Of a stretch of DNA of 44,762 nucleotides, positions 4,011 through 12,468 are shown piece after piece. Source of the DNA: Plantactinospora alkalitolerans (lineage in GTDB: Bacteria; Actinomycetota; Actinomycetes; Mycobacteriales; Micromonosporaceae); the NCBI RefSeq assembly GCF_015690345.1, contig NZ_JADPUN010000165.1:1-44762 (forward strand), in the 5' to 3' direction. Under the pieces are notes generated by a model. The model saw only the letters and a program-made list of their open reading frames with translations, was not told the origin of the DNA and did no database searches. Within the stretch, counting starts at the first letter, position 1. Each line of letters begins with the position of its first letter. The translations under genes were made by a program, and so were the position numbers.

Positions 4011-4526
4011 GTGGTGACCGGCCGACGGCAACAGCACGAGGCGTGGATGCGGCGGGCGCTGGAGGTCTCCGGCACCAGTCCTGCCGGCCTCGGTGCGGTC
4101 GGCCCGGCGGAAGACGTCGCCGACCGGGCCAGGGAGGTGGCGGCCGAGGACGTACCGGTCGGCGCGGTGATCTACGGCCCGGACGGAACGGAACTCTCCA
4201 CCGCCCGCAACGAACGGGAACGTACCGGTGACCCCACCGCGCACGCCGAGGTCCTGGCACTGCGCCGGGCCGCCGACGTGCTGGGGGCCTGGCGGCTGAC
4301 CGGCTGCACCCTGGTCGTGACGCTGGAGCCGTGCACCATGTGCGCCGGGGCACTGGTGCTCGCCCGAATCTCCACCCTCGTCTACGGCGCGTGGGAGCCG
4401 AAGACGGGCGCGGTCGGGTCACTGTGGGACGTCGTACGCGACCGGCGGCTCAACCACCGGCCCGAGGTCTACGGCGGGGTCCTGGAAGCCGAGTGCGCCG
4501 CCGCGCTCCGCGCGTTCTTCCGCTGA
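4011..4526 (+). CDS. tadA: tRNA-specific adenosine-34 deaminase
   Basis: Deaminates the wobble adenosine of tRNA-Arg(ACG) to inosine. The zinc-dependent deaminase motifs are intact: HAEV (His78, catalytic Glu80) and PCTMCAGA (Cys108, Cys111). The 171-residue length is slightly long because about 20 extra residues (SGTSPAGLGAVGPAEDVADR) sit between helix 1 and the VPVGAV strand. The start is taken at GTG 4011; GTG 4014 is equally possible. It follows the deaminase-associated gene and is followed by a short intergenic region containing DnaA boxes. Identification is firm. Confidence 0.93.
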   Translation: MVTGRRQQHEAWMRRALEVSGTSPAGLGAVGPAEDVADRAREVAAEDVPVGAVIYGPDGTELSTARNERERTGDPTAHAEVLALRRAADVLGAWRLTGCTLVVTLEPCTMCAGALVLARISTLVYGAWEPKTGAVGSLWDVVRDRRLNHRPEVYGGVLEAECAAALRAFFR

Positions 4527-4550
4527 CCTCCCACGCTGCGGACTCAGGGC

Positions 4551-4612
4551 TTATCCACAGTTTGTGGATAACTTCAAAACCTGTGGAAAACTCCGGTACG
4601 GGCTGTGGACCG
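4551..4612. promoter_or_regulatory. DnaA-box cluster (two perfect boxes in inverted pair plus one or two weaker)
   Basis: Directly seen: TTATCCACA (4551-4559) and TGTGGATAA (4563-4571) form a perfect inverted pair with a 3-base spacer. TGTGGAAAA (4582-4590, i.e. TTTTCCACA on the minus strand) and a degenerate TGTGGACCG (4604-4612) follow. TTATCCACA is the classic high-affinity DnaA box. The cluster fills the gap between tadA and the next gene and is not an oriC: there is no dnaA or dnaN nearby and only three or four boxes. It could titrate DnaA or regulate the downstream gene. Confidence 0.8.
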
Positions 4613-4661
4613 GGTACGTGCCGAGGGGCGTCCGGCTGGCAGACTTCGATCCGTGCCCCGC

Positions 4662-5573
4662 ATGGTCATTCCCGCCACCCTCAGTCGCAATGTCGTCGAA
4701 ACCTGGGGCGAGGCCGGTAGACGGTGGCTGACCGAGTTGCCGGAGCTGGAGTCCTCGATGCTGCGCGACTGGGAGTTGGAACCCGGCACGCCGTTTCCGC
4801 TCAGCTTCAACTGGGTCACCTCGGTCAACCGGGCCGACGGCTCGCCAGCGGTGCTCAAGCTCGGCGTACCGCACACCGGCCATCTGGCGGAGGAGGCGGC
4901 GACGCTCGAGTTCTTCGCCGGCCAGGGGGCGGTACGTCTGCTCGCCCGGGACGCCGACCGGGGGGCGCTGCTCCTGGAACGGGCCAACCCCGGCATCCCG
5001 ATCAGCGCACTCGTTCCATCGCGTGACGAGGAGGCGACCACCGCCTTCGTCGACGTGCTGCGGCGACTGCACCGTACGGCCCCGCCGAGTTGGCCACTGC
5101 CGGAGTTGGCGGCCCGGAGCGCGTCCTTCTCGAATCACCTGCGCGTGCACCCCGACGGTGGTCTGATCCCCCGGCACCTGGTGGAGCGGGCGGGCCGGCT
5201 GTTCGACGAGTTGTGCGCGACCGCGCCGGACCGGGTGATCCTGCACGGCGACCTTCATCATGACAACATCCTGCGGGCCGACCGGGAACCGTGGTTGGCG
5301 ATCGATCCGCACGGGGTCATCGGTGATCCGGGTTACGAGATCGGCGCCCTGCTCTACAACCCCGACCCCGGCCGGCGTGAGGACGACCTCCTTGCCCTGG
5401 TCCCGCGCCGGATCGAGCAGCTCGCCGACATGTTGGGAATGCCCGTCGAACGAGTCGTCGGCTGGGGATTCGTTCAGGGCGTGCTGTCGGAGGTGTGGAC
5501 GGCGGAGGGCGGTGGCACGCCCGGAAGCCGCGCCCTGGACGTCGCGCTGCAACTACTGCCCCGGCTGCCCTGA
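4662..5573 (+). CDS. aminoglycoside/hydroxyurea-type antibiotic resistance kinase
   Basis: Resembles the APH(6)/hydroxyurea phosphotransferase family, cytoplasmic kinases that phosphorylate aminoglycosides such as streptomycin. It shows the catalytic-loop motif HGDLHHDN (195-202), the metal-binding Asp in AIDPHGVIGDPGYE (Asp215) and the N-lobe Lys in AVLKLGVP. ATG 4662 is preferred; GTG 4653 is possible, and the upstream GTG 4605 lies inside a DnaA-like box. At 303 residues the length fits the family. The real substrate cannot be read from sequence, and many chromosomal members confer no clear resistance. DnaA boxes lie immediately upstream. Confidence 0.85.
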   Translation: MVIPATLSRNVVETWGEAGRRWLTELPELESSMLRDWELEPGTPFPLSFNWVTSVNRADGSPAVLKLGVPHTGHLAEEAATLEFFAGQGAVRLLARDADRGALLLERANPGIPISALVPSRDEEATTAFVDVLRRLHRTAPPSWPLPELAARSASFSNHLRVHPDGGLIPRHLVERAGRLFDELCATAPDRVILHGDLHHDNILRADREPWLAIDPHGVIGDPGYEIGALLYNPDPGRREDDLLALVPRRIEQLADMLGMPVERVVGWGFVQGVLSEVWTAEGGGTPGSRALDVALQLLPRLP

Positions 5574-5587
5574 CTGGACCGGGAGGG

Positions 5588-6874
5588 TCAGGGGCGGTGG
5601 GCGCCGATGGCGGCCGGGACCGGGGTGTTGGCCGCCGCGCCGATGGTCGCCGCCGGAGACAGGTTCCACCGCGGTTCGCCCGCCGTCGAGAACCCGCCGG
5701 ACGATTCGGCCGGATCGGCCGGCAGGACGACCGTGACGACCAGCCCGCCGCCCTCCCGGGGCTCGGCCCGGACCGAGCCGCCGTGCGCGCCGGAGACCGC
5801 CCGGACGATCGACAACCCGAGACCGAACCCGCGCCCGCCGTCGACCCGCTCCTGACGTAGCCGACGGAACGGCTGGAACAGCGTCTCGATCTCGTACCCC
5901 GGCACCACCGGCCCGGTGTTCGCCACCACCAGGGTGGCCCAGCCGTCGACCGTGCCGGTGTTGATCCACACCTCGCCGCCGGTCGGGACGTTGTGCCGTA
6001 CCGCGTTCTCCAGCAGGTTCTGGGCCAGCCGCTCCAGCAGAATCGGATCGCCGGTGGTACGGGCCGGCGCCAGGTACCGGTGTACGGAGAGCTGCGTCCC
6101 GGCGGTGGCCTGGTCGGTGACGTGCGCGGCCACCTCGGCCAGGTCGATCGACGTACGGTCGACAATCTGCTGGTCCGAGTCGGCCAGGGTGAGCAGCCCG
6201 TCGATCAGCCGTTCGTGGCGTTCGTTGATCGACAACAGCGTCTCCCCGAGCTGCCGTAGTTCGGCGGGGGCCTCCGGCCGGGTGATCGCGAGTTCCAGCA
6301 GCGAGCGGTTCAGCGCCAGCGGGGTACGCAGTTCGTGCGACGCGTTGGCGATGAACCGGCGCTGCCCGTCGAAGGACTGATCCAGACGTTCCAGCATCAG
6401 GTCGAAGGTGTCGGCCAGTTCCCTCACCTCGTCCCGGGGCCCGCGCAGCGCGATCCGCTCGTGCAGCCCCCGTCCGGCCGCCCCGGCCCCGGCGATCCGC
6501 CGGGCGGTGCCGGTGATCTGGTTCAGCGGTTGCAGCGCCCGGCCGGAGAGCAGCCAGCCGAAGGCGATGGCGGTCGCCGACACCACTCCCAGGGCGATGC
6601 CGCCCTGGGTGAGCAGGGTTTCCAGTGCGTCCTGCCGGGCCTGGTCCTGGACCTGCCGGGCGTACATCCGGAGCTGCTCGGCGTCCTCGGGGGAGGCGAT
6701 CTGCCCTGGCAGCCCGTTCAGCGGCTGCCTGAAGGCGTTCAGCGACACCCCGAAGGTCGCGGGCAACTGCTGCTTCACCAGGACGTAGGTGACGCCGAGC
6801 AGGACGATGCCGGCGAGCAGGAAGAGGCCGCCGTAGACGATTGTCAGACGAGCTCGGATGGTCAGTCGCTTCAC
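5588..6874 (-). CDS. sensor histidine kinase (two-component system)
   Basis: Membrane-bound kinase. TM1 is about residues 11-33, a ~55-residue extracytoplasmic loop follows, TM2 is about 89-110, then HAMP (about 111-165), and a HisKA helix with the phospho-acceptor His180 in NASHELRTPLA. The ATPase domain has an N box (LAQNLLENAVRHN) and a G2 box (GRGFGLGLSIV). The C-terminal ~40 residues are an Ala/Pro-rich tail. The ATG at 6874 overlaps the stop of the response-regulator gene (ATGA), so the two are translationally coupled. The pair is transcribed away from the exporter operon that starts at 7659 and probably controls it (inference from position). Confidence 0.92.
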   Translation of the reverse strand: MKRLTIRARLTIVYGGLFLLAGIVLLGVTYVLVKQQLPATFGVSLNAFRQPLNGLPGQIASPEDAEQLRMYARQVQDQARQDALETLLTQGGIALGVVSATAIAFGWLLSGRALQPLNQITGTARRIAGAGAAGRGLHERIALRGPRDEVRELADTFDLMLERLDQSFDGQRRFIANASHELRTPLALNRSLLELAITRPEAPAELRQLGETLLSINERHERLIDGLLTLADSDQQIVDRTSIDLAEVAAHVTDQATAGTQLSVHRYLAPARTTGDPILLERLAQNLLENAVRHNVPTGGEVWINTGTVDGWATLVVANTGPVVPGYEIETLFQPFRRLRQERVDGGRGFGLGLSIVRAVSGAHGGSVRAEPREGGGLVVTVVLPADPAESSGGFSTAGEPRWNLSPAATIGAAANTPVPAAIGAHRP

Positions 6875-7527
6875 CGGATCTGATACCCCACTCCCGGAAC
6901 CGTCTCGACGACCTGCGGGTCGCCGAGCTTGCGGCGCAGCTTCATCACTGTCACCCGCACCACGTTGGTGAACGGGTCGATGTGTTCGTCCCAGGCCCGC
7001 TCCAGCAGCTCCTCGGCGGAGACGACCGCGCCGCCGGCCCGCATCAGCTCGGCCAGCACCGCGAACTCCTTGCGGGACAGCGCGACGTGCCGACCGTCGC
7101 GGTAGACCTCGTGCCGGGCCGGGTCGACCACCAGTCCGGCCCGGGTCAGTTTCGGCGGTGCCGCCGGCCGGGCCCGGCGGATCAGCGCGTGCACCCGGGC
7201 CGAGAGTTCGACAAGCGCGAACGGCTTGATCAGGTAGTCGTCGGCGCCCAGCGCCAGACCGGCCACCCGGTCCCGGACAGCGGCGGCGGCGGTGAGCATC
7301 AGCACCCTCGTCTCGGCCCCGCCGTCCATGATCGCCCGGCAGACGTCATCCCCGTGCACCACCGGCAGGTCCCGGTCGAGCACGACGACGTCGTAGTCGT
7401 TGACGCCGAGCCTCTCCAGGGCCGAGTCGCCGTCGTACACGACGTCGACCGCGAACGCCTCCCGACGTAACCACTCGGCGACGGCGTCCGCCAACAGCTT
7501 CTCGTCCTCGACCACCAGTACCCGCAC
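6871..7527 (-). CDS. OmpR-family response regulator
   Basis: 218-residue regulator: receiver domain with the acidic pair Glu7/Asp8, phospho-acceptor Asp51 (VVVLDRDLP), Thr79 and Lys101 (DDYLIKPF), then a winged-helix DNA-binding domain ending RVTVMKLRRKLGD...VPGVGYQIR. The start is set at GTG 7527 because the first receiver strand RVLVVEDE begins there; the open frame extends upstream to 7602 without homology-like content. It overlaps the kinase gene by four bases. The 131-base gap to the lipoprotein gene is the natural place for its binding sites. Confidence 0.93.
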   Translation of the reverse strand: MRVLVVEDEKLLADAVAEWLRREAFAVDVVYDGDSALERLGVNDYDVVVLDRDLPVVHGDDVCRAIMDGGAETRVLMLTAAAAVRDRVAGLALGADDYLIKPFALVELSARVHALIRRARPAAPPKLTRAGLVVDPARHEVYRDGRHVALSRKEFAVLAELMRAGGAVVSAEELLERAWDEHIDPFTNVVRVTVMKLRRKLGDPQVVETVPGVGYQIR

Positions 7528-7658
7528 CGTCCCATCGTGACTCGCTCCCGGGTAACCCCGCCGTAAACGTCGACGGTTACGCCCCGGATACGCGCCCCGC
7601 ACTTCACTTTGTCCGTATCGGCCGGCGAACCGCGCCGGCCCACGGAAGGAGTTGTGCC

Positions 7659-12378: not shown

Positions 12379-12468
12379 GGTGGTGTGTCCGAGCGGCCTA
12401 AGGAGCACGCCTCGAAAGCGTGTGAGGGTTTACGCCCTCCAAGGGTTCAAATCCCTTCACCACCGCCA
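12379..12468 (+). tRNA. tRNA-Ser (anticodon CGA), 3' CCA encoded
   Basis: Acceptor stem GGTGGTG pairs with CACCACC (12458-12464). Discriminator is G12465 and CCA is encoded at 12466-12468. The anticodon loop CTCGAAA sits between stems CACGC and GCGTG, giving anticodon CGA (serine UCG codons). The long variable arm (GAGGGTTTACGCCCTC) and T arm GGGTTCAAATCCC fit class II tRNA-Ser. Its 3' side is followed by a terminator and an integrase remnant, a classic integration target. Confidence 0.97.

Follow-up and report, generated by a model that had tools for sequence, protein, structure and literature searches.

The window analysed here is the whole stretch of 44,762 nucleotides. It comes from a 9.2-Mb draft genome of Plantactinospora alkalitolerans (G000; 441 contigs), and the element described below lies on contig C307, just 3′ of a tadA-like gene. 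The features of this part of the window are as follows:

4011–4526, forward strand: tadA-like deaminase gene (PF14437, PF00383), the upstream neighbour, outside the element
4551–4559, forward strand: DnaA box 1, TTATCCACA, read directly from the sequence
4560–4562: spacer of 3 bases between boxes 1 and 2
4563–4571, reverse strand: DnaA box 2, TTATCCACA, facing box 1 head to head, also read directly from the sequence
4551–4571: boxes 1 and 2 together, an inverted repeat that is the core of a longer palindrome in five relatives
4582–4590, reverse strand: DnaA box 3, TTTTCCACA, its start 19 bp from that of box 2
4604–4612, reverse strand: weak box 4, CGGTCCACA, as read from the sequence
4662–5573, forward strand: phosphotransferase gene (PF04655 APH_6_hur), a neighbour outside the element, its start set by inspection
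5588–6874, reverse strand: histidine-kinase gene, a neighbour outside the element
6871–7602: response regulator of the histidine kinase, a neighbour that follows the kinase gene

Two perfect boxes facing each other across three bases, with one further good box and one weak one, had been noted in a preliminary description of this DNA, and all four were found at the positions given there. In a second Plantactinospora genome (G058) the counterpart of weak box 4 is the better CTGTCCACA. In the draft genome the cluster (C307) and the dnaA match (C297) are on different contigs, and the cluster lies outside the dnaA–dnaN origin. The reading frame after the cluster has two possible starts, GTG 4605, which falls within the weak box, and ATG 4662, giving a gap of 78 or 135 bases; ATG 4662 is the likelier start of the phosphotransferase gene. 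The sole tRNA gene found in the window, tRNA-Ser(CGA), lies well downstream at 12379–12468.

Single boxes occur in the window near the chance rate (seven boxes with at most one mismatch against 4.7 expected, with 20 of 100 shuffles reaching seven), so that the evidence rests on their arrangement. Under an order-2 Markov model of the window, head-to-head pairs with a spacer of 0–10 bp are expected 2.6e-7 times in the window and 5e-5 times in a genome of 9.2 Mb. These values are perhaps several times too low, because the same model undercounts single control words: it predicts 13 perfect single boxes genome-wide, where the reversed control gives 30 and the real word 53. Even when corrected upward, the expectation for a pair is far below 1. 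The earlier statement that random occurrence is very unlikely therefore stands for the head-to-head arrangement and not for the boxes taken singly. Several near-perfect boxes lie close together here, beyond chance, which is the mark of a DnaA-box cluster.

The arrangement recurs throughout the genus. A pair pattern, TTRTSCACA-N2..6-TGTGGATAA, was searched with its reversal as control and occurs at exactly one place per genome in all seven Plantactinospora genomes (control 0/7), at most 180 bases 3′ of tadA in six of them. When stretches cut around this pattern from the seven genomes and from two of genus g11 were aligned, all 17 invariant columns proved to be letters of box 1 or box 2 or the C that follows box 2. 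Box 1 conforms to TTNTNCACA in 9/9 genomes and varies only at positions 3 (A/G) and 5 (C/G), the only positions of that box that the search pattern had left free; box 2 is invariant in 9/9, a result partly built in, since the pattern demands TGTGGATAA. A looser pattern, TTNTNCACA-N2..6-TGTGNANAA, returned the same single pair and no further one in four Plantactinospora genomes (G000, G058, G113 and G032), and over 18 family genomes it matched in nine, the control in one. Box 3 is TTTTCCACA in five of the nine aligned genomes, TTGTCCACA in one, ATATCCACA in two and degenerate in G113, with a spacing of 19–21 bp from box 2 across the alignment; weak box 4 is not retained in most. The boxes persist while the remainder of the gap beside tadA changes. 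Conservation in the corresponding gaps of related genomes had been proposed as a check on the site, and both position and sequence are indeed kept in the genus and its nearest relatives.

DnaA tolerates change at box positions 3 and 5 of the consensus, and the variation in box 1 fits a DnaA box because it is limited to those positions. The near-perfect boxes commonest in the dnaA–oriC loci of six genomes of the genus are TTGTCCACA (15 occurrences) and TTATCCACA (six). The DnaA proteins of G000, G058 and G113 carry in their C-terminal part the DHTT motif, which has a role in box recognition. Since the boxes are constrained, the changes they accept suit DnaA, the oriC loci share the same words and the DHTT motif is kept, we take the site as DnaA-binding: judged from sequence, 4551–4612 is very probably a DnaA-binding cluster.

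The neighbouring genes change more than the boxes do. Only in the window and in G058, two of the seven Plantactinospora genomes, does the phosphotransferase gene stand between the cluster and the histidine-kinase gene. It was not found in the stretches around the cluster of the other five, where the kinase gene has its 3′ end towards the cluster. That DnaA bound at the cluster regulates the downstream phosphotransferase gene would suit the placing of boxes 1–3, 72–111 bases upstream of ATG 4662, and the same order in G058. With the gene not found around the cluster in five of the seven genomes, and with no sigma-70-like promoter in window positions 4400–4800 by a scan covering that type only, we regard such regulation as very unlikely. 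The coupling of this gene to replication suggested in the preliminary description accordingly loses its footing, the gene being at the site in just two of seven genomes and the kinase 3′ end in five; ancestral control of the phosphotransferase gene was likewise considered and rejected, because no such gene was found there in five of the seven genomes with the cluster.

In four Plantactinospora genomes (G078, G092, G104 and G113) tadA and the kinase gene converge on the cluster, and a gap between convergent genes makes it ill-suited as a promoter element. The fifth, G032, has the kinase side only: its cluster lies beside the kinase and regulator genes and its tadA 5.9 Mb of coordinates away, the break between them being a rearrangement or an assembly join (G032:C1 2288588 and 8178172). 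Of the g11 genomes, G010 and G068 have the kinase gene after the cluster, and a 20-kb stretch of G048 yielded none. The idea that the cluster had crossed tadA in G068 was considered and rejected: once the orientation of the locus is accounted for, the order of tadA and cluster is the same as elsewhere.

Convergent genes bring up another reading, that the element is primarily a bidirectional transcription terminator or hairpin between them, with the boxes as its stem. The palindrome continues past the boxes, with arms of differing sequence, in G032, G078, G104, G048 and G068. Among the nine related sequences, a small set cut around the pair, the five arm pairs closest to the boxes are formed in 80 percent of alignment cells, as against 24–47 percent when the arms are slid, and their covariation score is 0.54 against at most 0.17, a value reached by 0/500 shuffles; nine arm pairs form in 69 percent as against 28–45 percent. 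Predicted RNA folding is well below that of shuffled sequences (z −5.7 to −4.0) in G104, G032, G078 and G058, four of the nine genomes, modestly so (−2.7 to −2.3) in G048, G068 and G092, and weak in the window (−1.6) and G113 (−0.6), where folding is little better than in shuffles.

A stem can form without any fixed sequence; the letters that do not vary are nevertheless those of the boxes, and the third box, retained in most of the nine genomes, lies outside the hairpin. Neither the window nor G092 or G113 has extended arms, and arm pairs with changes on both sides are not above shuffles, of which 193/500 and 113/500 reach the count. A scan for a G+C-rich stem with a T run after it revealed no intrinsic terminator in positions 4400–4800 of the window, the one sequence scanned, and an Rfam search of the gap gave no match. 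A hairpin thus seems, from these models, to be favoured in several species and not general, whereas the boxes are, and we consider a primary role in ending transcripts improbable, if worth keeping in view. DnaA binding alone would nonetheless leave the covarying arms unexplained. Extended palindromic arms also accompany some of the other head-to-head pairs of the family (L060–L089; for example L069, L078, L079 and L085).

On the chromosome the cluster mostly lies near the origin. Its distance from dnaA is about 300 kb in both G058 and G113, 230 kb in G048, and 210 kb in G068, so that in four complete genomes it is outside oriC yet close to it; a fifth, G032, is an exception, with the cluster 1.77 Mb from dnaA. 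G058 holds 56 perfect TTRTCCACA boxes (control 36). With a doublet defined as boxes within 100 bp and the pair at tadA counted in, there are ten doublets, all within 1.37 Mb of the origin; chance would give about 0.03 doublets. The single boxes of G058 are spread nearly evenly, with 13/36 within 1.4 Mb, or 29 percent of the chromosome. The contrast between doublets and singles in nearness to the origin has a Fisher P of 0.0006, or 0.0005 when sites under 25 kb are left out. In G113 each of the seven doublet sites is no more than about 1.4 Mb from dnaA, as are four of the six direct doublets of G032, whose other two are at 1.6 and 3.2 Mb.

Direct doublets (TTRTCCACA-N3..33-TTRTCCACA) occur in all 35 family genomes tested, which are mostly single-contig assemblies (control 0/35), and across the class in 91/197 genomes (control 1/197). 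In 14 family genomes, with genome sizes rounded, 90 of the 104 doublet sites more than 2 kb from dnaA fall in the origin-proximal third, against 35 expected, at a median of 0.10 of the half chromosome; P values for such placement are overstated, as many of the sites are probably orthologous between genomes. Within the 12–42 bp allowed by the pattern, spacings gather at 12–13, 17–22 and 31–33 bp. The commonest in the genus is 19 bp (23/45 matches), the spacing shared by boxes 2 and 3 at tadA. Tight head-to-head pairs are present in 60/150 family genomes (control 0), those of G036 and G080 about 2.6–2.7 Mb from dnaA. One further locus, G004:C1:2632540-2632647, about 384 kb from dnaA, has two identical TTATCCACAGGCTGTGGATAA pairs 87 bp apart.

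Beside tadA the distribution is patchier. DNA 3′ of tadA was inspected in at least one genome, and mostly in one, of each of 43 genera of the family; the stretches were mostly 1.5–4.5 kb long (0.7 kb in G041), and no match to tadA was obtained in genus g26. Seven of the 43 (g1, g11, g9, g16, g28, g29 and g37) have a cluster, pair or relic at most 3 kb 3′ of tadA. The form is a direct doublet of 19–21 bp in g1, g11 (3/3 genomes), g9, g16, g28 and g37, of which the last two have a single imperfect box in the doublet; the one genome of g29 has a head-to-head pair, again with one box imperfect; g9, g16, g28, g29 and g37 are each represented by a single genome with a two-box or pair form. The doublets of g9, g28 and g37 sit about 1 kb further on, and in G010 (g11) the boxes come 2.6 kb from tadA after other DNA, still ahead of the kinase gene. 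At L195 (G015) a DnaA doublet overlaps the 3′ end of tadA itself, its second box appearing by eye to supply the TAA stop.

No pair or doublet was present beside tadA in the remaining 36/43 sampled genera, most of them sampled by one genome, and three genomes (G004, G014 and G033) have one lone box 3′ of tadA. Whether the cluster travels with the kinase was also tested: there is no exact box beside the best response-regulator match in G003, nor in the kinase-bearing stretches 3′ of tadA in G005, G035, G057 and G112. From these sequences the site at tadA seems to be older than the genus, though often lost or moved. The suggestion that it may be the Micromonosporaceae counterpart of the Streptomyces clusters consequently fails for the place beside tadA, with no pair or doublet seen there in 36 of 43 sampled genera; doublets at other places occur family-wide and mostly near the origin. 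Scarcity at tadA is also what could be said for the cluster as a chance or neutral leftover without function. Against this stand the expectation of about 5e-5 pairs per genome and the boxes that stay while the gap changes; the conservation of the boxes disfavours such a reading, which we hold to be extremely improbable.

Another arrangement, three direct-order DnaA boxes at typical spacings of 32 and 21 bp, was noticed in 77/150 family genomes (control 0/150), with instances at:

G113:C1:319164-319225 (L120): three-box direct site
G058:C1:3082179-3082240: three-box direct site
G000:C250:6954-7015: three-box direct site

Nine of 11 mapped genomes have this site at 0.82–1.06 Mb from dnaA and two at 0.35–0.40 Mb, and a YgjP-like metallopeptidase gene lies 0.7–0.8 kb from it at the three loci scanned. 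Two perfect boxes 53 bp apart in G000 and G058 are, going by spacing alone, perhaps its outer boxes. This is perhaps the main datA/D78-like site of the family.

To our knowledge, the limits on initiation in filamentous actinomycetes have been worked out mainly in Streptomyces; the DnaA-box clusters of S. coelicolor, reportedly described by Smulczyk-Krawczyszyn and colleagues in 2006, are said to be H69, H24 and D78. Passages of PMC4585315 state that untimely initiation can be repressed by DnaA-box clusters lying near oriC, in S. coelicolor as in B. subtilis, and cite Okumura et al. (2012) for the oriC-proximal clusters of B. subtilis. The present cluster resembles those of S. coelicolor in having boxes outside but close to oriC on an actinomycete chromosome and differs from them in its core, a head-to-head pair with a 19-bp doublet, and in the covarying arms of some species. 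The clusters of B. subtilis, which belongs to another phylum, are likened to it by position, being near the origin. From its sequence, the cluster appears to be a further example of these already known origin-proximal DnaA-box clusters outside oriC. No report of the cluster at tadA came up in the largely open-access literature searched; the papers obtained for DnaA boxes with Micromonospora, Micromonosporaceae and Actinoplanes deal, by title, with genomes or genomics.

By analogy with what is reported for S. coelicolor and B. subtilis, we lean, on slightly better than even grounds, towards the cluster being part of an origin-proximal DnaA sink. DnaA would occupy both the head-to-head pair and the direct doublet of 19 bp; a cluster a few hundred kilobases from oriC would be copied soon after each initiation, and this early copying would double the strong sites, draw DnaA from oriC and so delay a second initiation. 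Its partners would be the roughly nine further doublets that lie near the origin on that chromosome. The boxes, how they are conserved, where they lie in relatives and the doublets that accompany them are observed; DnaA binding, titration and an effect on initiation frequency are what we infer for the site. The sink reading is weakened by the small number of boxes, four being few for a sink alone, by the 36 sampled genera that showed no pair or doublet at tadA, and by the clusters or pairs that lie far out in G032, G036 and G080.

The cluster might instead do more than bind, reactivating or inactivating DnaA by nucleotide exchange or hydrolysis in the manner of DARS or datA. The datA and DARS sites of E. 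coli have IHF and Fis as partners. A compact multi-box cluster outside oriC, kept in place, is like those sites as passages of PMC4585315 present them, and in PMC4585315 and PMC10950094 datA is said to promote hydrolysis of DnaA-bound ATP. The likeness to datA lies in a compact DnaA-binding site outside oriC, here putative; a regulatory role of that kind seems to us quite unlikely.

A more speculative extension of the origin-proximal sink, which we rate as doubtful, is a distributed timing device of Micromonosporaceae chromosomes, in which about ten spaced DnaA doublets would load DnaA successively with the passage of the forks and so gauge their progress, the tadA element being a composite unit. 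Its doublets would be those with the preferred spacings of 12–13, 17–22 and 31–33 bp, mostly near multiples of the helical turn, in the origin-proximal third. On this proposal the DnaA pair would also be the core of the covarying hairpin that lies where two genes converge, and DnaA occupancy and the ending of transcription would exclude or aid each other. The mapped, conserved set of doublets offers exact sites for testing DnaA titration in a second family of antibiotic producers, and the covarying arms raise the question of whether one element is shared by DnaA binding and transcript ending.

Several other sites were noticed in the course of the searches. In L128, around 1501–1540 (G000:C210:5410-5449), a three-box DnaA-like site with an imperfect middle box lies in the gyrB–gyrA gap and is identical over 40 bases in 7/7 Plantactinospora genomes; it may tie gyrA expression to DnaA. 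Genomes of family f20, such as G302 and G322, have doublets (seven and eight, respectively) at a nearly fixed spacing of 29 bp and spread over the chromosome, a layout unlike that of the window's family. A three-box pattern built from the tadA element also matched two Streptococcus records (L149 and L151). On contig C397 of the draft genome the boxes are placed symmetrically about one point (coordinate sums 97187), which suggests that much of the contig is an inverted copy of the rest, perhaps through an artefact of assembly.
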